DNA from: a virus
Length of the DNA stretch: 43,430 nucleotides
Virus record (IMG/VR): IMGVR_UViG_3300031566_000109
Coordinates: 1 to 43,430 of that record
Strand: one strand, 5' to 3'
Shown: positions 6,670 through 30,626 of the stretch, piece after piece
Layout of the letters: each line of letters begins with the position of its first letter
How positions within the stretch are numbered: position 1 is the stretch's first letter
Position numbers and translations under genes: made by a program
Notes under the pieces: generated by a model
Databases searched by the model: none
What the model saw: the letters and a program-made list of their open reading frames with translations, nothing else
Told to the model about the DNA's origin: nothing

Positions 6670-6710
6670 ACCGGTTCGATGCAATGGCCGGTATCGAAAG
6701 GAGGTTAAAA

Positions 6711-7676
6711 ATGGAGCCGGTATCAAGACTATTTGAACAGTATCTAAATGTGTCGAATCTCGCCGATTCTACGAGGGAAACCAAGAGAAGGGCGGTTAGA
6801 AGATTTATTGATTTGTGTGGTGATTTAGCCATAGAGGACGTTACGTTCACCCACGCAGAAGATTACAGAAAGTGGCTATGCAACCAGACATCTCCTTCGT
6901 CCGCCAACACTTATACGGCCAATCTGAAACCCTTTTTTACTTGGGCCGTAAAAAGAGGCCACATCAAACTTGACCCATTCTACGGCTTATCTTTACTGCC
7001 TATTCAAGAAACAGAATCAGTTCTATTCTCCCCGCACGATATTGAATCAATCATTAAAGTTGCGGACGTGAGATGGAAAGTTTTTGTACTCTTGGCGGCG
7101 GTAGGGGGGCTGCGAAGGGGCGAATCTCAGAACCTAAAGGTTTCGGATATTCACTTCGACGAAAGTTTCATTCAGGTATCCCCCGCAAAGGACGGCCCGA
7201 CGACGTGGGAACACACAATTAAAAATCACACCTGCGCCCCCGTACCATTCCCCGAAATCGTAGAGTTACCACACAGCACTATAAATTACCATACCTTAAT
7301 GGTAACTCTAATCGAGAAATTACAACCTGACCAGCCGTATATAATGTTGACAAGGGACTGTTACGACAGAGCAATGTCACGTAAAAATTCAGGGAAAATG
7401 ACTTATGAGCATCGTGGCAATCCGTGGGGCAATTTCGACAGAAAGTTCAAGGAACTCTGTATCTGTGCGGGAGTGGGGCCAAAAGAGTTTCGTAAGCTGC
7501 GAACCACATTGGGTACGGTCACGGCGAGACATTTCAACCTGACAGACACGCAGAAGTTGTTGCGTCACAAATCGCCCCAGACTACGGCTAAATTTTACAT
7601 AGTCGTAAACCATCAAGAACTGGTGCGTAGAGTGAACGAAGCAACGAAAAAATTTTATGTGACCAATGAAACATAA
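6711..7676 (+). CDS. int: Tyrosine recombinase (phage integrase)
   Basis: The ATG at 6711 is chosen because AAAGGAGGT sits 7 bases upstream; an earlier in-frame ATG at 6684 lacks such a site. The product has 321 residues, with an N-terminal SAM-like core-binding domain (about 1-95) and a catalytic domain. Catalytic residues visible are R135 in GGLRRGE, R264 in KLRTT, H286 in LLRHKS and the nucleophile Y296 in KFYIV. The usual box II His (HxLR) is Arg here (R261). It should integrate and excise the phage DNA. TTATGTGA repeats overlapping its 3' end are candidate arm sites. Confidence 0.9.
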   Translation: MEPVSRLFEQYLNVSNLADSTRETKRRAVRRFIDLCGDLAIEDVTFTHAEDYRKWLCNQTSPSSANTYTANLKPFFTWAVKRGHIKLDPFYGLSLLPIQETESVLFSPHDIESIIKVADVRWKVFVLLAAVGGLRRGESQNLKVSDIHFDESFIQVSPAKDGPTTWEHTIKNHTCAPVPFPEIVELPHSTINYHTLMVTLIEKLQPDQPYIMLTRDCYDRAMSRKNSGKMTYEHRGNPWGNFDRKFKELCICAGVGPKEFRKLRTTLGTVTARHFNLTDTQKLLRHKSPQTTAKFYIVVNHQELVRRVNEATKKFYVTNET

Positions 7677-13427: not shown

Positions 13428-14123
13428 ATGACCCTGCCAGTGAACAAGATAATATGCGGTGACTGCTTAGAGGTTATGGCCGACTGGCCTGACAACTGCG
13501 TGGACTTGGTGCTGACCGACCCGCCGTATGGGATAGGGGAGAGCAATAAAAAAAACCTGAGTAGGGGGAAGTGGGCTAATCCCACAAATTATGGCGAATA
13601 TGAGTGGGACAAAGGCAAAGTTTCTGATGAACACTTAATGAACGCCTGTAGAGTCGGGAAAAACCAAATTATCTTCGGCGGCAATTATTATGGCGGACTA
13701 CTTGGCGATACAAGCTGTTATGTTGTTTGGGATAAAGACAATGGTAAAAGCGACTTTGCTGATTGCGAATTGGCTTGGACATCATTTAAGACGGCCACAA
13801 AGCTGGTTAAGTGGAAATGGCAAGGAATGTTGCAAGAGGCAGGTCACCAAAAAGACTATCGCCAACACCCCACACAAAAGCCGCTCGGCGTGATGAAATG
13901 GATACTTGAACGATACAGCGAGATTGGCCAGTTAGTCCTCGACCCTTTCTGTGGCTCTGGCACTACCTGTGTAGCTGCTAAGATGTTAGGCCGCAACTAC
14001 ATAGGCATAGACATAAGCCCTGAGTATTGCAAGATTGCCGAGCAAAGACTTCGGGCTGTAGATACAGGCGTACCAGTTAAAGAGCAGCGTGCAGGCCAGA
14101 TGGCACTGTTTGAGGAAGGCTGA
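13428..14123 (+). CDS. DNA adenine-type methyltransferase (N6/N4 class, beta order)
   Basis: The protein has 231 residues. The catalytic motif IV DPPY is at 31-34 and the SAM motif I (DPFCGSGTT) at 172-180, which is the beta order of the D12/N6_N4 family. Motif X follows directly with HPTQKPLGVMKWIL. The target-recognition part is short (about 40-140). No restriction partner lies nearby, so it is an orphan enzyme, likely protecting phage DNA or marking it. The C-terminus contains QMALF (224-228), a good match to the bacterial sliding-clamp binding pentapeptide. Confidence 0.92.
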   Translation: MTLPVNKIICGDCLEVMADWPDNCVDLVLTDPPYGIGESNKKNLSRGKWANPTNYGEYEWDKGKVSDEHLMNACRVGKNQIIFGGNYYGGLLGDTSCYVVWDKDNGKSDFADCELAWTSFKTATKLVKWKWQGMLQEAGHQKDYRQHPTQKPLGVMKWILERYSEIGQLVLDPFCGSGTTCVAAKMLGRNYIGIDISPEYCKIAEQRLRAVDTGVPVKEQRAGQMALFEEG

Positions 14124-22239: not shown

Positions 22240-22377
22240 ATGAGTACCAAAGCACCAACAAAAACAAGCCCTATAAGCATAGAAGAACTACTCCGCAGAC
22301 AGCAGCAGCAATACAGGGCGTATGAGGCTAAGTATTTAGTTAGACAAGCATGGGAAAAACAAAAACATGTGATGTAG
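22240..22377 (+). CDS. 45-residue helical micro-protein
   Basis: ATG at 22240 follows AAAGAAGAAA. The sequence is a polar start (STKAPTKTSP) and one long helix (IEELLRRQQQQYRAYEAKYLVRQAW). It overlaps the terminase small subunit start by 28 bases in another frame. Function unknown. Confidence 0.45.
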   Translation: MSTKAPTKTSPISIEELLRRQQQQYRAYEAKYLVRQAWEKQKHVM

Positions 22378-22838
22378 CGACCGAACAGAGATATAACATA
22401 TTCGCTGATTGCATAATAAAGGGATTAAGTGGCACGGTAGCCTACAAACAGTCTCACCCTCTCTGCAAGCGAGATGACAGTGCTGCCGTAGGTGGTCATA
22501 GGCTATTAAGGAATGATAAGGTTAAGGCCTTGATAAGGACTAAAAGACAGGCAATACAGGCGGTTGACGAGTATACCCGCACCAAAGCCCAGTCTGAATA
22601 TGAGCAGGTGCGGTCTCTTGCTATCGACAAGGCCGACCTAACCAATGCTAATAGCGCCATACGTGGCAAGGCCAGGCTGTATGGCTTGGAGATAGAGAGA
22701 GTAGAGCATGACCACTTCTTAGGCCGTATGCCGGACGCAGGCCAGGCCATAGAGCGCAGCAAGGCAAGGGCAAAGCAGGTACAAAGCACAGTGATAGACA
22801 GCGGCCAGCTGGGTGATGGTGGGGGTGATGTACCATAA
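22350..22838 (+). CDS. terS: Terminase small subunit
   Basis: The protein has 162 residues. RYNIFADCIIKGLSGTVAYKQSHP then AAVGGHRLLRNDKVKALI match the N-terminal HTH of Terminase_2-type small subunits, where repeated helices end in LL-x-N-x-KV. Coiled-coil-like sequence follows, then a Gly-rich tail. It should recognise phage DNA for packaging. The large subunit begins 1.8 kb downstream, farther than usual, with small genes between. Confidence 0.7.
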   Translation: MGKTKTCDVATEQRYNIFADCIIKGLSGTVAYKQSHPLCKRDDSAAVGGHRLLRNDKVKALIRTKRQAIQAVDEYTRTKAQSEYEQVRSLAIDKADLTNANSAIRGKARLYGLEIERVEHDHFLGRMPDAGQAIERSKARAKQVQSTVIDSGQLGDGGGDVP

Positions 22839-24438: not shown

Positions 24439-24672
24439 ATGGATTCAGGGACAGGTTATCATTTTGACATAGAATATAAGATTAGAATTGCGAAACGACT
24501 TGGTGGAGACTCTGTAATAAGCGTTTTTTGTGACCAAGACCCGGACAACTTCCTTGAAATGGAATGGTCGCGAGATGACATTAGTCGCGGCTTGACGGGA
24601 GCTGGTGTTGCCATGCGTCGTCATTTTGACAAGCATCTCAAGGAAAAGTTTCTAGCTTGGTTAAGAAAATGA
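24439..24672 (+). CDS. Hypothetical small protein
   Basis: The protein has 77 residues with an AAAGGTAGAG site. It is alpha/beta, with IEYKIRIAKRLGGDSVISVF and a C-terminal helix (AMRRHFDKHLKEKFLAWLRK). Its stop overlaps the terminase start (ATGA). Confidence 0.6.
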   Translation: MDSGTGYHFDIEYKIRIAKRLGGDSVISVFCDQDPDNFLEMEWSRDDISRGLTGAGVAMRRHFDKHLKEKFLAWLRK

Positions 24673-25352
24673 TATACCCGCTCGATAGCGACCTAAAGCC
24701 TGTCATTTTTAAGGAGCAGTTCCAGGCACTCCTCAAGGACAAGGAATGGCAGAAGGATGAGATTGTCCGGTGCTCCGAAGAGCGGTGGTACTTCATAGTA
24801 AATTACTGTTGGACTATTCGCAAAGACGATACCGGCAGTTACGTTGAAAGAGTACCACCTAAAGAATATTTAAGACTGGTAGCAGATGATTGGTGCAGAC
24901 GCCCGTTTTACTTACTTTCCAAGAGCCGCCAACTTATGGCGACGTGGCTGTTTATTATTTTGCATCTCCACGCGTGTATGTTCAAGGAGAACATTCTTGT
25001 CTGTTGTCAGACCAAGAAAGAGGATGTCGCCGACGCCGAGATGATTCAAAGGGCGCGGTACGTTTGGCAGCAGCTTCCGGTCTGGATGAGGAAATTCAGC
25101 ACATCGAGATATAAGTATTGCAAGCTGGACTTTCCCCATACCAGTTCGAGAATGAAGGGCATACCGGCCGGTGCGGACCAGATACGGGCTATGGTCCCTA
25201 ATTACCTGTTAAGTGACGAGTTCGCCTTCCAGCCGGACGCAGAAGAGGCTTATGCGGCGGCCCTGCCGTGCTGTCAGAGGATTACACTGGTATCTTCGGC
25301 CAATCCGGGGTTCATGGACGAACTGGTTCACGATAGGATAAAGGTGGCGTAA
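24669..25352 (+). CDS. terL: Terminase large subunit, ATPase half (split gene, part 1)
   Basis: The ATG at 24669 overlaps the previous stop. The 227 residues contain a complete packaging ATPase: YLLSKSRQLMATW (81-93) is a deviant Walker A with the Lys at the start, NYLLSDEF (178-185) is Walker B with D183 and the catalytic E184, and LVSSANPG (207-214) is the coupling motif. The protein stops soon after (ELVHDRIKVA), where intact terminases continue into the nuclease domain. That domain is encoded separately at 25911. A methyltransferase-like gene lies between them. Confidence 0.85.
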   Translation: MIYPLDSDLKPVIFKEQFQALLKDKEWQKDEIVRCSEERWYFIVNYCWTIRKDDTGSYVERVPPKEYLRLVADDWCRRPFYLLSKSRQLMATWLFIILHLHACMFKENILVCCQTKKEDVADAEMIQRARYVWQQLPVWMRKFSTSRYKYCKLDFPHTSSRMKGIPAGADQIRAMVPNYLLSDEFAFQPDAEEAYAAALPCCQRITLVSSANPGFMDELVHDRIKVA

Positions 25353-25927
25353 TGGAAGTTGAGGCGAATTATAAAGGTTACGGCACTTTGCCGGACGATA
25401 TTTGGGGCTGGTATCAGTTGAGGCTCAAACATTCTGATGGCGGTCGTTACGACAAAGCGCCGTCAACACATGTCCACCTGGAGACCTTGCGTTACTATGC
25501 AAAACAATGTGACCATATAACTGAATTTGGCGTTAGATACGTAGTCTCCACGTGGGCGCTATTAGCCGGAAGCCCGAAAAGAATGGTCTCGATTGATATT
25601 AGAGAATGTCCGGTAGATGTAGTTTATGCCGCCGCTAAAAAGGGTGGTATTGACTACGAGTTTATCTGCGCCGACGATTTAGAGATAGTCATAGAGCCGA
25701 CAGATTTATTACTTATAGACAGTCTGCATACATACGAACACTTGACCGCCGAACTAAAACGCCATGCACAGAATGTCAAAAAGTATATTATCGTCCACTC
25801 TTTATCGTTTCCGGGGGTAAAGAGGGCCATAGTGGAATTTCTCTATAAGAACAAGGACTGGTCTTTTCACGAAGTCAGGCCACAGGCTTACGGTCTGGCC
25901 GTTTTGAAATATGACATGGACGCCTAA
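25352..25927 (+). CDS. Methyltransferase-like protein inserted in the terminase gene
   Basis: The protein has 191 residues and its ATG overlaps the stop of terL part 1 (TAATG), with AAAGGTGG before it. HITEFGVRYVVSTWALL resembles SAM motif I but the usual second Gly of the loop is Val; MVSIDIRE, FICADDLEI and DLLLIDSLHTYEHLTAEL follow as in Methyltransf_24-type class I enzymes. Its last 17 bases overlap terL part 2. It is probably a small-molecule or sugar methyltransferase; altered cofactor binding is possible. Confidence 0.7.
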   Translation: MEVEANYKGYGTLPDDIWGWYQLRLKHSDGGRYDKAPSTHVHLETLRYYAKQCDHITEFGVRYVVSTWALLAGSPKRMVSIDIRECPVDVVYAAAKKGGIDYEFICADDLEIVIEPTDLLLIDSLHTYEHLTAELKRHAQNVKKYIIVHSLSFPGVKRAIVEFLYKNKDWSFHEVRPQAYGLAVLKYDMDA

Positions 25928-26879
25928 ACATCAAGGAGAAGACCTACGGACGGGTTTCTTTCACAGACAGATACACTACTCCGACGACCCGAACAGGGAT
26001 TCCGAATGGGTTAAAACGGAGAGTATCAAATATGGGGGTGTAAATTCCGCCAAGTGGCGGCGCGAGCAGGAGATAGACTGGAACGTATTCGGTGGCCAGA
26101 GGGTCTGGCCGATGATAAACCGCGGATATCACAGTGCGATTATCGACCTTAACGAAGACTGGGCCATATACCGAATACTCGACCACGGGATAAGGCATCC
26201 CACCTGCTGTTTGTGGGTTGGTGTTAATCGAAGGGGTGACAGGCACTTTTTCAGAGAGTATTACGCGACTGATAAGAGTATCGCAATAAATTGTAGGCAG
26301 ATACTAAGGTTCACAGACGAAGAAGTGATTGATTCTTATATCGACCCATCAACGAAAAAGAGGATTAACTACGTAACCACCGATGCCAATAGCGAAAAGA
26401 AGGGTCTTGCCAGAATAATGGATATCTACGAAGAGAACAAGATTCAGTGTTCTCTGGCCGATAACTGTGCCGCCGGCTACGATAAAGTAACGGACGGGCT
26501 TCTATCGACTATGGCCAGACATGCGATGCGAACCGGACAATTACCGGAGTACATGGCGGAGATGGGCATAAATCAGGACCACCTATGTATTCTGGCGGAC
26601 AAGCCCTCGATTACTTTTGATTTAAGGTTCGTACCGAGAGCGTTTAACGAGACGGAGAACCTTCGCTGGAAGGAAATTACAGGTGACATTTCCCAGAAGA
26701 GCGAACCGGAAAAGACGGTTGACGTTCAGGACGAAGGGCCGGATTGCGTAAGGTACGCCATGCAGAGCGATTTATTCTGGCGACGGCCTCTACCGAAAAT
26801 TCAGGAAGGAAGTTATCAGGACACACTTCTCAAGCGGCTTATGAAACGAAGAAGACAGGGATATAGAAAATGGGCATGA
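25911..26879 (+). CDS. terL: Terminase large subunit, nuclease half (split gene, part 2)
   Basis: The protein has 322 residues. It begins within the sequence that normally links the domains (HRQIHYSDDPNRDSEWV), then an RNase H-like nuclease: RILDHGIRHPTC with D91, TTDANSEKKG with D158, and EGPDCVRYAMQSD with D278 are the likely metal ligands. It has its own ATG inside the end of the methyltransferase gene. With part 1 it accounts for a whole TerL. The two chains presumably assemble. The C-terminus (YRKWA) shares its coding sequence with the end of the next small gene. Confidence 0.82.
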   Translation: MTWTPKHQGEDLRTGFFHRQIHYSDDPNRDSEWVKTESIKYGGVNSAKWRREQEIDWNVFGGQRVWPMINRGYHSAIIDLNEDWAIYRILDHGIRHPTCCLWVGVNRRGDRHFFREYYATDKSIAINCRQILRFTDEEVIDSYIDPSTKKRINYVTTDANSEKKGLARIMDIYEENKIQCSLADNCAAGYDKVTDGLLSTMARHAMRTGQLPEYMAEMGINQDHLCILADKPSITFDLRFVPRAFNETENLRWKEITGDISQKSEPEKTVDVQDEGPDCVRYAMQSDLFWRRPLPKIQEGSYQDTLLKRLMKRRRQGYRKWA

Positions 26880-27019
26880 AAAAAGACAAGAACAAAAAAG
26901 GCAAAAAATATTGGTGTAGAGGCAAAAAATGTCCTCTGACCTGGCTAACACTTGACGGTATTTATTTTATCCGTTGCGGATACGATGATTCTGTTCCTCA
27001 GTGGAGAAAATGGGCTTAA
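26870..27019 (+). CDS. 49-residue zinc-binding micro-protein
   Basis: The start overlaps the end of terL part 2 by 10 bases. It has a Lys-rich N-terminus, then WCRGKKC and IRCGYD, a likely zinc site, and ends PQWRKWA. The closing AGAAAATGGGC (27006-27016) copies the end of terL part 2 (26866-26876). Function unknown. Confidence 0.55.
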   Translation: MGMKKDKNKKGKKYWCRGKKCPLTWLTLDGIYFIRCGYDDSVPQWRKWA

Positions 27020-27020
27020 T

Positions 27021-29033
27021 ATGGCAAAAGAAGTAAAGAAAACCGTAGCATCGGAATTGACACCGGCCGAGCGCGAAAAGGCCAATAAAAAGAGAACGTA
27101 TAATTACTGGATGAGTTGTATCGGTCGCGCCAAGAAGCAGATGCCCACTAAAGAATGGACGGCCGCCGAGGAGAGGTACACCGCTAAGAAGAAGGACAAG
27201 AACGGGCAGGATATTCGGCCGTTTGTTAATGACTGTAGAAAACTGCACGAATCGTCCATGTCGTTTCTCGACCAGCAGGAACCGTCTTTTAAGGTCTCCC
27301 CCTCAGAGGCTTTTATGAGTTCCGAGATTGCTATGAAGCAGGCCGAATGTGACGGCGCTTATCTGAAAGCCGTGTGGCGGGAACAGCACTGCCAGAAGGC
27401 CCAATCGAGAAAACTGGGTTCCGCTTTGCTGAAGAATAACGGCTACACCCTGCATCAATTCGATGTTAAGAAGTGGATGCCGTTTATCAAATACGTAAAA
27501 CCTGAAAACGCATTACTCGACCCGGACTGTGACGGTCTCGAAGAGAACGCTAACTGGAAGGGTTACTTCGAGCCGGTATCACTGGAGGAGTTCAAGAGCT
27601 GGCATCCCGACATTGGTGACGATATAATTAAGGCCCTCAGGGAGAATGCCGGTTCCGTTCTTACCGAGGAGGAAAGGACAGAGACGGCGGACGAGGACAA
27701 ACCGCTTTACCAGACTGTTCTGGTCTATCATATCTACGCACGGAACGCCGCGGCTATAAGGAAAATCAAAGACGACGCTATGGCCGAAGTGCCGGAAAAG
27801 AGGCTCGCCGAGGAACTGCAACTGGAGACCCCGCGGAGGTATCTCCAGTTCGCAGAAGGTTATTCGGCCCCGATAGTAGATGAGGATTTTTGGCCGTTTG
27901 ATTTGGACCACGACGAATTTCCCCTTACGCACTTACAGTTTAATACCGCCGATTCGCTTTACGGGTTCACCGACTACGAGCAGATGCAGCGCCTCGACCT
28001 GTTAAGCGATGATGTGATAAGGGATTTGGGGTTAGCTTCTTTCTGGGCGGCGGTCCAGAAGTTTATAGGCAAAGCCAATCTTTCAGTAACCCGAACTGCA
28101 ATCGAAGATTTCCTCAATAATACCAAAACATCTTTTCTCGAAGGTTTGGCCGATTCCGCAGGCGAACCGTTAATCCAACCTCTTGAAAGAGGACGAATCG
28201 ACCAGGCTCAAATGGCGGTCTACACCTTGGTTCACGACCAGTCGAAAGAGGCTTCCGGGCAATCGGAACTATTAGAGAACGCCGATGCTCAGGCGTATAA
28301 AGATGTCACCGCCTTGGCTACGAGGGTAATAGAGGCCAACCTGCACCAGAGAGTAAATAGGAGACTGGGCGGGCCGTGGGGGTACGAACAGTCGATAGCC
28401 GAAGATGCGATAAAGATGCTGGAAATAGCACACCAGTTCGTACCACAGGTTTCGCAGGTGGCTATGATGGCAGATTTCCCCGTTGAGGATGAAGTAGGTG
28501 CTCCTATTTTTGGCGAAGATGGCATTACTCCATTGACCGAACAAAAAGAAGACGTAAAAGACCTGCCGTGGGACGAGGCGTTGAAAGCAATAGCTGAAGG
28601 CGGTCAGTTGATTAAGTTGGGGGTAGATGCTCTCGTCGGGCCGGAGTTGGCACAGTTCTGGTCGTATAAGACCCCTGCTGTGCAATGGAGATTAAGCACG
28701 AAGGTAACGGTCGAACCTGGTACTACAAGGTCGGTTACTAAAGAACAGCAAACCGCTGTTATGAAGCAGTTGTATCTTGAAGTATTTTTCCCGTTCTACC
28801 AAATGACCGGCAAGATAGATTTGATGCGAGACTTTATCGAGATGATTGGCCGCATGGGCGGTGTGCCCAACATCGACTCGAAACTGCCTACGGTCAACGA
28901 ACTAAAACAGATGATGGTTATGGCGGCGGAACAGAAGGCCGCGGAGCAGCAGGCACAGGAACAAATGGGCGAGGCCGGTGGCCAGCCGTTAAATTCAGCG
29001 GATGCTAACGGGGGAGAAGAACAATCAGTTTAA
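27021..29033 (+). CDS. Portal protein
   Basis: The ATG at 27021 (after TTAAT) gives 670 residues; a longer frame from 26952 overlaps the previous gene and has no better site. Features of podoviral portals are seen: an N-terminal helical region, KYVKPENALLDPDCDGLEENANW (clip/wing region), long beta-containing middle, and a C-terminal Gln/Ala-rich helix (MMVMAAEQKAAEQQAQEQMGEAGG) like a barrel or crown. The size and order (terminase, portal, scaffold, capsid) fit. It forms the dodecameric DNA gate of the head. Confidence 0.82.
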   Translation: MAKEVKKTVASELTPAEREKANKKRTYNYWMSCIGRAKKQMPTKEWTAAEERYTAKKKDKNGQDIRPFVNDCRKLHESSMSFLDQQEPSFKVSPSEAFMSSEIAMKQAECDGAYLKAVWREQHCQKAQSRKLGSALLKNNGYTLHQFDVKKWMPFIKYVKPENALLDPDCDGLEENANWKGYFEPVSLEEFKSWHPDIGDDIIKALRENAGSVLTEEERTETADEDKPLYQTVLVYHIYARNAAAIRKIKDDAMAEVPEKRLAEELQLETPRRYLQFAEGYSAPIVDEDFWPFDLDHDEFPLTHLQFNTADSLYGFTDYEQMQRLDLLSDDVIRDLGLASFWAAVQKFIGKANLSVTRTAIEDFLNNTKTSFLEGLADSAGEPLIQPLERGRIDQAQMAVYTLVHDQSKEASGQSELLENADAQAYKDVTALATRVIEANLHQRVNRRLGGPWGYEQSIAEDAIKMLEIAHQFVPQVSQVAMMADFPVEDEVGAPIFGEDGITPLTEQKEDVKDLPWDEALKAIAEGGQLIKLGVDALVGPELAQFWSYKTPAVQWRLSTKVTVEPGTTRSVTKEQQTAVMKQLYLEVFFPFYQMTGKIDLMRDFIEMIGRMGGVPNIDSKLPTVNELKQMMVMAAEQKAAEQQAQEQMGEAGGQPLNSADANGGEEQSV

Positions 29034-29042
29034 GGAGAGAAA

Positions 29043-29249
29043 ATGTATTGCAAAGATTGTAAGTTTTGGAAACCACGAAAAGAGCAGGACGAATTGGACG
29101 AATGCTCAAACGAAAAAGTAGAGGACTTGTATTTTAGTAGCAACTATGGCGGTGGCCCGCCCATGTGCGCTCGTCCCAATTTTGGTTGTGTTTTATTTGA
29201 AGCAAGGAGAGAAAATGGACATTTGCACAGCGATGTACCATCGCGTTAG
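29043..29249 (+). CDS. Small zinc-binding protein
   Basis: The protein has 68 residues after TTTAAGGAGAG. YCKDCKFWKP, DECSNE, PPMCARPNFGCVLFE form the common four-to-five-Cys pattern of small phage zinc proteins. Its 3' end overlaps the glycosyltransferase gene by 35 bases. Function unknown. Confidence 0.65.
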   Translation: MYCKDCKFWKPRKEQDELDECSNEKVEDLYFSSNYGGGPPMCARPNFGCVLFEARRENGHLHSDVPSR

Positions 29250-29985
29250 CGATGATGTTTTCGAGACGTTTCTGAGGACTTTCAGGAAGGTTTCAGGCGC
29301 TCATTTACAAGTTTATACCGACAATGTACCCCTTGGACTTCAAAAGAAGTGGTCTAACGACTACCAAGTGGTATGGGTAAATATTGAGTCCATGAAGGGC
29401 AAAAGGTGTTACGTCAAGATGCAGGCGGTCAGGAGCGCCCTGTCTAAGTGTAAAGACGGCGACAGGATAATCGTTTCCGACGTAGATACATACTATCTTG
29501 CCGACCCGTTCTTGGCGTTTAGTAAATTAGATTATCAACAGAATCTCGCACACGACAATCACGGAACTTGCAATTTTGATATAGGCGTTACGCTAAGACT
29601 CCACTCTTATAAGTTTCCGGTCAATTCCGGCGTGTTCTTTATCAACGTGAACAAGAAAAGCAGGGAATCTTTTGACTACTTTGATGTATACGCAGAAGAC
29701 CACAAAAACAGTTGGGATTGGTTTGTTGACCAAGACTTCATTAACTTCTTGTACGAATGTGGCGAAGCTGTTGATGTTGGCTGGGAGTACAACTTCTGCC
29801 CGAACACCGATTATTTTGGGGTTGACAAGGCCGCCGATATGATTAAGAGGGCTTACGAATCCAAATCAGTTAAAGTTCTTCATTTGAAAAGCGAATTGAA
29901 GATGTGTATTTACGAAGGTTTTTTGGAAGATGCCGTGACCAAACACCTAAAAGGTGGTTGGGACTGGCGGAAAGAAGGCGCTTAA
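29215..29985 (+). CDS. GT-A fold glycosyltransferase (GT8-like)
   Basis: The ATG at 29215 follows AAGGAGAGAAA, giving 256 residues. The nucleotide-sugar site is clear: RIIVSDVDTYYL has the DxD at 89-91, FPVNSGVFFIN (135-143) is the acceptor-side block, and WFVDQDFINF (170-178) follows, as in GT8-like nucleotide-sugar transferases. A metal-dependent sugar transfer is expected; acceptor unknown. It starts a three-gene overlap series with a methyltransferase and a second glycosyltransferase. Confidence 0.82.
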   Translation: MDICTAMYHRVSDDVFETFLRTFRKVSGAHLQVYTDNVPLGLQKKWSNDYQVVWVNIESMKGKRCYVKMQAVRSALSKCKDGDRIIVSDVDTYYLADPFLAFSKLDYQQNLAHDNHGTCNFDIGVTLRLHSYKFPVNSGVFFINVNKKSRESFDYFDVYAEDHKNSWDWFVDQDFINFLYECGEAVDVGWEYNFCPNTDYFGVDKAADMIKRAYESKSVKVLHLKSELKMCIYEGFLEDAVTKHLKGGWDWRKEGA

Positions 29986-30626
29986 TGACGAAATCTTTGT
30001 GGTGCATACCGGCGGATGACAAGCCAATAATGGCCCGTTACGTAAATCTTCTCGATACCATAAAAGAGAATGACTGTAAAGTCATAATGGAAATCGGGGT
30101 CTTTAACGGGTTTCACGGCAAGCAGATGATATTGGCTGCGCTTGAGACCCTTGGCGAGGTTCATTATTACGGCTTTGATTTGTTCGAGGACGCTACCCTT
30201 GAAATTCTGGAAAAGGAAGTAGCGCCTCGGCCGCCAACAATGGTAAGGGTGCAGGAGAATATGAAAGGCGCAGGCGTACAAGTCCAGCTTTTTAAGGGGT
30301 TTTCGGTTGATACCGTACCCTTGTTTGCAACAATGAATATTCAACCCGACCTTATTTTCATAGACGGCAGCCACACAACAGAGAATACACGAATTGACTG
30401 GGACAACTGCAAGAAGTTAATGCACGAAACCACTATCGTCTTTTTCGACGATTACATGTCGAACTTCAAAGAGATTGGCTGGGGCTGTAACGAGGTTGTT
30501 GACGCTATTGAAGGGTATAATATCGAGTTTTGCGAGCCGCACGATACGTACATGGCGAGAAGGCCGTATACAGAAGAAAGGTTTTTAACCGAAGCGAGGT
30601 TGGTCAAAGTATGGAATGCCCACTAA
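29985..30626 (+). CDS. Class I SAM-dependent methyltransferase (Methyltransf_24-like)
   Basis: The ATG overlaps the previous stop (TAATG); 213 residues. IMEIGVFNGFHGKQMI (34-49) is motif I, YYGFDLFED the acidic motif II, LIFIDGSHTTENTRIDW and IVFFDDY the later blocks. This family often methylates sugars or makes sugar-linked changes, and it lies between two glycosyltransferases. The methyl acceptor is unknown. It overlaps the next gene by 16 bases. Confidence 0.82.
   Translation: MTKSLWCIPADDKPIMARYVNLLDTIKENDCKVIMEIGVFNGFHGKQMILAALETLGEVHYYGFDLFEDATLEILEKEVAPRPPTMVRVQENMKGAGVQVQLFKGFSVDTVPLFATMNIQPDLIFIDGSHTTENTRIDWDNCKKLMHETTIVFFDDYMSNFKEIGWGCNEVVDAIEGYNIEFCEPHDTYMARRPYTEERFLTEARLVKVWNAH

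Follow-up and report, generated by a model that had tools for sequence, protein, structure and literature searches.

A terminase large subunit encoded as two chains in a clade of uncultured phages, with a methyltransferase-like gene between them in one member

Split essential phage genes are already known. They include nrdA/mobE of Aeh1, gene 60/mobA of T4 and gp43A/B of phage 25, in each of which the gene is split and two polypeptides together supply an essential enzyme (PMC2988022). Split nrdA yields a fully active enzyme, and the 43A and 43B products co-purify with polymerase activity (PMC2988022). These cases are sporadic and are tied to homing endonucleases or to an untranslated spacer. 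The gene for the terminase large subunit (TerL), whose nuclease domain has been reviewed as a universal associated feature (PMC7824862), can also be interrupted, sometimes into several ORFs. It is split by group I introns and restored by splicing in Jug phage (PMC12363816), carries spliced group I introns in Bacillus phage SIOphi and Bastillevirinae (PMC11878797), and contains an intein in Mic1 (PMC7156551). The product in each case is spliced to one chain. Our search of open-access papers, with most subscription journals outside it, returned only intron or intein cases of a split or two-gene terminase, and no published description of a clade-wide two-gene TerL was found. The split terminase described here is characteristic of a whole clade, its gene order is inverted in one lineage, and the gene intervening in the window is not a nuclease.

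The terminase locus

The window is the whole stretch of DNA that was analyzed, an IMG/VR virus record of 43,430 bases. The relevant features are as follows.

6684-7676: integrase-like ORF
22350-22838, + strand: terminase small subunit (TerS); phrog_51 E 7e-9, Pfam Terminase_2 7e-4
24439-24672, + strand: ORF 5' of chain 1, overlapping it by ATGA, in the same operon
24669-25352, + strand: TerL chain 1, ATPase core; ATG at 24669, TAA at 25350-25352, 227 aa
25350-25354, + strand: TAATG stop-start coupling, with a Shine-Dalgarno-like AGGTGG directly 5'
25352-25927, + strand: methyltransferase-like middle (cargo) gene; TAA at 25925-25927, 191 aa
25911-25927, + strand: 17-base overlap of the cargo-gene end and the chain 2 start
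25911-26879, + strand: TerL chain 2, last ATPase strand, lid and nuclease; TGA at 26877-26879, 322 aa

The two TerL halves share one reading frame and are separated by 561 bases. Within the insert, which is almost wholly coding, that frame contains many stops. These coordinates agree with the first-pass annotation in placing a complete 191-residue gene, with its TAATG and 17-base overlap, between two separately translated TerL chains. No Shine-Dalgarno sequence was seen on inspection of the chain 2 start, and its translation probably begins by re-initiation. A 5-base repeat, ATGGA, flanks the insert (25352-25356 and 25916-25920). It is too short to carry much weight, and deletion of one copy would leave the stop in place. 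When TerL profiles were compared with the ORFs of the record, no further TerL-like ORF was found at E<0.01. The record is without terminal repeats and may be incomplete, so that a second terminase elsewhere is conceivable.

Chain 1 carries a Walker A-like KSRQLMATW, a Walker B motif DEFAFQPD and a coupling motif III, SSANPG, which corresponds to STPNG in T4-like phages. Its Walker A sequence is a variant, KSRQ, that lacks GKT. Chain 1 matches phrog_5989 (E 8e-10), its family profile matches residues 99-287 of T4 gp17 in the PDB (E 9e-12), and tblastn with it matches 189 phage records, down to 1e-9. The motifs KSRQ..W, DE.AFQP and S.A are invariant or nearly so across the family. With Walker A and B, the catalytic acid, motif III and a RecA-like core all present, this half is the ATPase part of a TerL, as first annotated, and it ends at its own stop about 11 residues past motif III.

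Chain 2 contains the strand IHYSDDP (residues 21-27), lid residues W49 and E52, and an RNase H-fold nuclease. The nuclease acids had been given as D91, D158 and D278. D91 is invariant in the family and D278 nearly so, while D158 is not conserved and is replaced in this role by the invariant D145 (DPS). Chain 2 matches phrog_5653 (E 4e-5), and its family profile finds the TerLs of P22, SPP1 and D6E in the PDB (E 6e-6 to 1e-3). An AlphaFold model of chain 2 resembles the D6E, SPP1 and P22 TerL nucleases in Foldseek comparisons (E 1e-5 to 6e-5). The fold and the conserved acids identify it as the nuclease part of a TerL. A tblastn search with the nuclease half among cultured phages gave no match. 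Modeled alone, chain 2 has unfolded residues 1-25 (pLDDT under 50), a prediction consistent with a need for chain 1; the match to TerL nucleases lies in the remainder of the model.

When joined, the window halves align end to end with intact phage TerLs, and no core residues are missing at the junction, where a loss had been a concern of the first-pass annotation. They share with T4 gp17 its ATPase motifs, its lid and its RNase H nuclease, arranged in identical linear order. T4 gp17 and the eight intact TerLs used below as an outgroup are single chains, whereas here the two parts are separate ORFs. The joint falls in a variable loop of the alignment, after motif III and before the IHYSDDP strand. 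The equivalent position was located in a fused relative, L187, whose full-TerL model (pLDDT 90) matches the T4 gp17 structure over its length (E 9e-17). In that model strand 248-253 and motif III are followed by a loop, 264-280, that is equivalent to the cut, and then by an ATPase strand at 291-295. The cut thus lies between ATPase strands, inside the ATPase core and not between the two domains as had been supposed, so that the last ATPase strand and the lid sit on the nuclease chain.

Recurrence of the split among relatives

Exact-peptide scans with single window halves recovered no relatives, and a degenerate REQEIDW pattern gave chance matches only. The main survey scanned IMG/VR with degenerate DNA encoding the Walker B peptide DExAFQP[DE], a pattern that is blind to the split. 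It returned at least 120 stretches, some of them near-duplicate contigs, and loci were classed with profiles built from the matches. Among the matches listed, 68 loci have separate halves and 4 have one chain; a further 15 show the ATPase half alone within the sequence covered. The separate loci, again among the matches listed, comprise 49 with the ATPase first and 19 with the nuclease first, and in about 20 the halves are at most 25 bases apart or overlap. The cut is at one and the same place in all split loci among these matches. A second sample was collected with nuclease motifs and shares part of its contigs with the Walker B survey; of its loci that have both parts, 20 are separate and 3 fused. 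Its more distant TerLs are mostly single ORFs of 447-647 aa and serve as a control, showing that splitting of TerL is not a general feature of IMG/VR contigs.

Relatives were also found on contigs of metagenome-assembled genomes (MAGs), including Omnitrophota, Latescibacterota, Phycisphaerae, Bacillota, Synergistaceae and others. None of the ten is fused and nine have a separate nuclease ORF; the contig of the tenth, L218, ends just where that ORF is expected. In the prophage-like L216, of a Bacillota lineage and on a 229-kb scaffold, the halves are joined directly by TAATG, the same junction that the window has between chain 1 and its cargo gene. Where dS was not saturated, dN/dS in relatives was 0.02-0.3 for both halves, showing that purifying selection acts on each. 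These results bear on the reading that the terminase is degenerate or artefactual, from a decaying prophage or a chimeric record. The record is metagenomic and without terminal repeats, and its methyltransferase copy lacks several invariant residues. We nonetheless regard this reading as highly improbable, since most family-invariant residues are present in both window halves, the overlaps are clean, the split recurs in dozens of independent contigs, and both halves are under purifying selection in relatives.

In the reversed loci (L092, L093, L100, L121, L156, L209 and relatives) the nuclease gene is 5' of the ATPase gene, and small basic ORFs and TerS lie between the halves. A conserved protein of 187-202 aa with CSDEDLRNR and ILREWF motifs is also found there. 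Separately, the ATPase half at L215:863-1627 is itself two ORFs with a stop between them, either a real second split or a sequence error.

The architecture of these loci addresses splicing, and introns and split inteins are both very unlikely on sequence grounds. A group I or II intron would remove the insert from the transcript. The gene terL is a favored intron target, and HNH ORFs occur in the gaps of some relatives. The window insert, almost all coding, has no recognizable intron RNA: with the cut-off relaxed to E<=5, Rfam returned no family for window 25000-26300, and 16 gapped relatives yielded one tRNA and nothing else at the gathering threshold. Among the matches listed, about 20 relatives have no gap and 19 have reversed order; touching or overlapping halves and reversed gene order rule out cis-splicing at those loci. 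The first-pass view that the insert holds no intron therefore stands. Protein trans-splicing by a split intein could instead join the two chains after translation, and inteins are known in TerL (Mic1, PMC7156551; an intein-like insert in L103). This is the least probable of the readings considered, as neither the window nor other members leave room for intein halves: in the window, chain 1 ends shortly after motif III and chain 2 begins about 20 residues before IHYSDDP.

A quick tree, several of whose branches are long, was built from both halves with the eight intact phage TerLs as outgroup. The 61 sequences form one clade apart from the outgroup (SH-aLRT 100), with 57 split and 4 fused. The fused members (L131, L114 with L152, and L187) scatter among the split ones, and the split or fused state requires at least 4 changes within the clade. 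This fits one old fission followed by about three re-fusions, it being understood that a tree alone cannot tell gain from loss. We infer a single origin of the fission. The inversion of gene order needs one change. An unsplit gene at this site, which the first-pass annotation had named as the result that would count against it, occurs only in those 4 relatives, scattered as re-fusions would be. The sister of the window is L213, from a Phycisphaerae MAG (SH-aLRT 93). It is also split, and its gap holds two small ORFs unrelated to the middle gene of the window. Given the diverged window TerL, its long branch and the support of only 93, it is conceivable that this lineage was split separately.

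The middle gene and other gap contents

The 191-residue middle protein has only a marginal Pfam match, to Methyltransf_24 (E 0.047, below cut-off); matches to LuxS and erbB look like chance. By blastp it has more than 50 IMG/VR relatives, mostly at 35-46% identity over most of the length (best E 1e-36). The phage family so defined shares the motifs E[FM]G.R, ID[TS]LHTY[DE] and FHDT. Clear family members match Methyltransf_24 and RMNT_CmcI, some of them are fused to glycosyltransferase domains, and several lie in multi-gene or multi-domain sugar-modification settings. The middle gene clearly belongs to this widespread family of phage methyltransferase-like proteins. Of the features expected in a class I SAM-dependent methyltransferase, a SAM-binding motif I and conserved acidic motifs, the window copy retains EFGVR and IDSLHTYE, with HDT changed to HSL and SDI to STH. 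It has the family residue at 22 of 29 strongly conserved positions, fewer than any other aligned family member; the seven diverged positions are 38, 39, 121, 124, 130, 150 and 151. The HDT aspartate is present in 26 of 26 relatives and absent here, which makes methyltransferase activity of the window copy uncertain.

Other methyltransferase genes were noted. A DNA methyltransferase gene (window 13428-14123, phrog_67 E 7e-52) adjoins a replisome-organizer-like ORF. A glycosyltransferase-like (Nucleotid_trans) gene and a Methyltransf_24 gene form a second cargo-like pair at window 29146-30626 in the structural region, directly 3' of a 693-aa ORF (26952-29033) that is itself next after TerL. The possibility that the middle gene is a recent copy of the methyltransferase at 29904-30626 was rejected. 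L078 has a more distantly related methyltransferase directly 5' of TerS and TerL, and L063:470-4534 encodes a 1354-aa phage protein that combines the methyltransferase domain of the middle gene with glycosyltransferase 2 and FkbM.

Gap contents vary among relatives: there may be none, an HNH endonuclease (L103, L163, L197), an HE..H-motif protein (L117, L124) or other small proteins. No methyltransferase of the middle gene's family was found between TerL halves at any other sampled terminase locus. This distribution weighs on the earlier proposal that a methyltransferase gene recently entered an intact terL and thereby split it. A complete gene does lie exactly between in-frame halves from which no residues have been lost, and phage genes split by inserted homing endonucleases are known (PMC2988022). 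The identical cut occurs clade-wide with other inserts or with none, however, including in the nearest relative, and is shared by 57 of the 61 sequences. We consider recent disruption very improbable; as judged from these comparisons, the middle gene is a passenger and not the cause of the split.

The middle ORF is methyltransferase-like, so the window shows no insertion of the homing-endonuclease (mobE-like) type. By analogy with Aeh1 nrdA (PMC2988022), the HNH ORFs of relatives hint at a homing endonuclease as the agent of the first split, although they are no proof of it. In L103 (11010-12524, - strand) the split ATPase gene is interrupted in frame at Walker B by an intein-like insert, approximately residues 189-455, with C...HN/S boundaries and a weak Pfam Intein_splicing match (2e-3); the gap before its nuclease half holds a NUMOD3/HNH ORF. 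An intein-like insert in this gene suggests that the gene must still yield a product.

A proposed motor assembled from two chains

Our preferred reading, to which we assign a probability of about 85%, is that TerL in this clade is a two-chain enzyme that assembles non-covalently into a motor of the ordinary type, following an old fission inherited by the clade, and that the gap between the genes tolerates cargo. Chain 1 would bring both Walker motifs, the catalytic acids of Walker B, and motif III. Chain 2 would supply the final beta-strand of the ATPase sheet, with lid and RNase H nuclease after it. The separately made chains are proposed to pair so that the orphan strand of chain 2 completes the ATPase fold of chain 1, and the pair would package DNA as an ordinary TerL does. 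The fission was probably passed down through a large clade of uncultured phages, in which the gap gains and loses genes. In the window that gap presumably took up the methyltransferase-like cargo gene, embedded by stop-start coupling, with the order chain 1, cargo, chain 2 read by putatively coupled translation. Such coupling of the cargo gene would maintain translation of chain 2.

A broader reading is held only tentatively, as a real possibility short of an expectation: that a broad clade of uncultured tailed phages has an obligately two-chain TerL, with a strand-donated ATPase core encoded by separately tuned, re-orderable and exchangeable genes. If so, the two activities could be expressed at different ratios. 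TerL is used as a marker that all tailed phages carry as one gene; a clade with a two-gene TerL would be overlooked or scored wrongly when TerL searches and trees are filtered by length. With motor and nuclease naturally separated, the stoichiometry of the nuclease and its coupling to the ATPase within the packaging motor would become directly testable.
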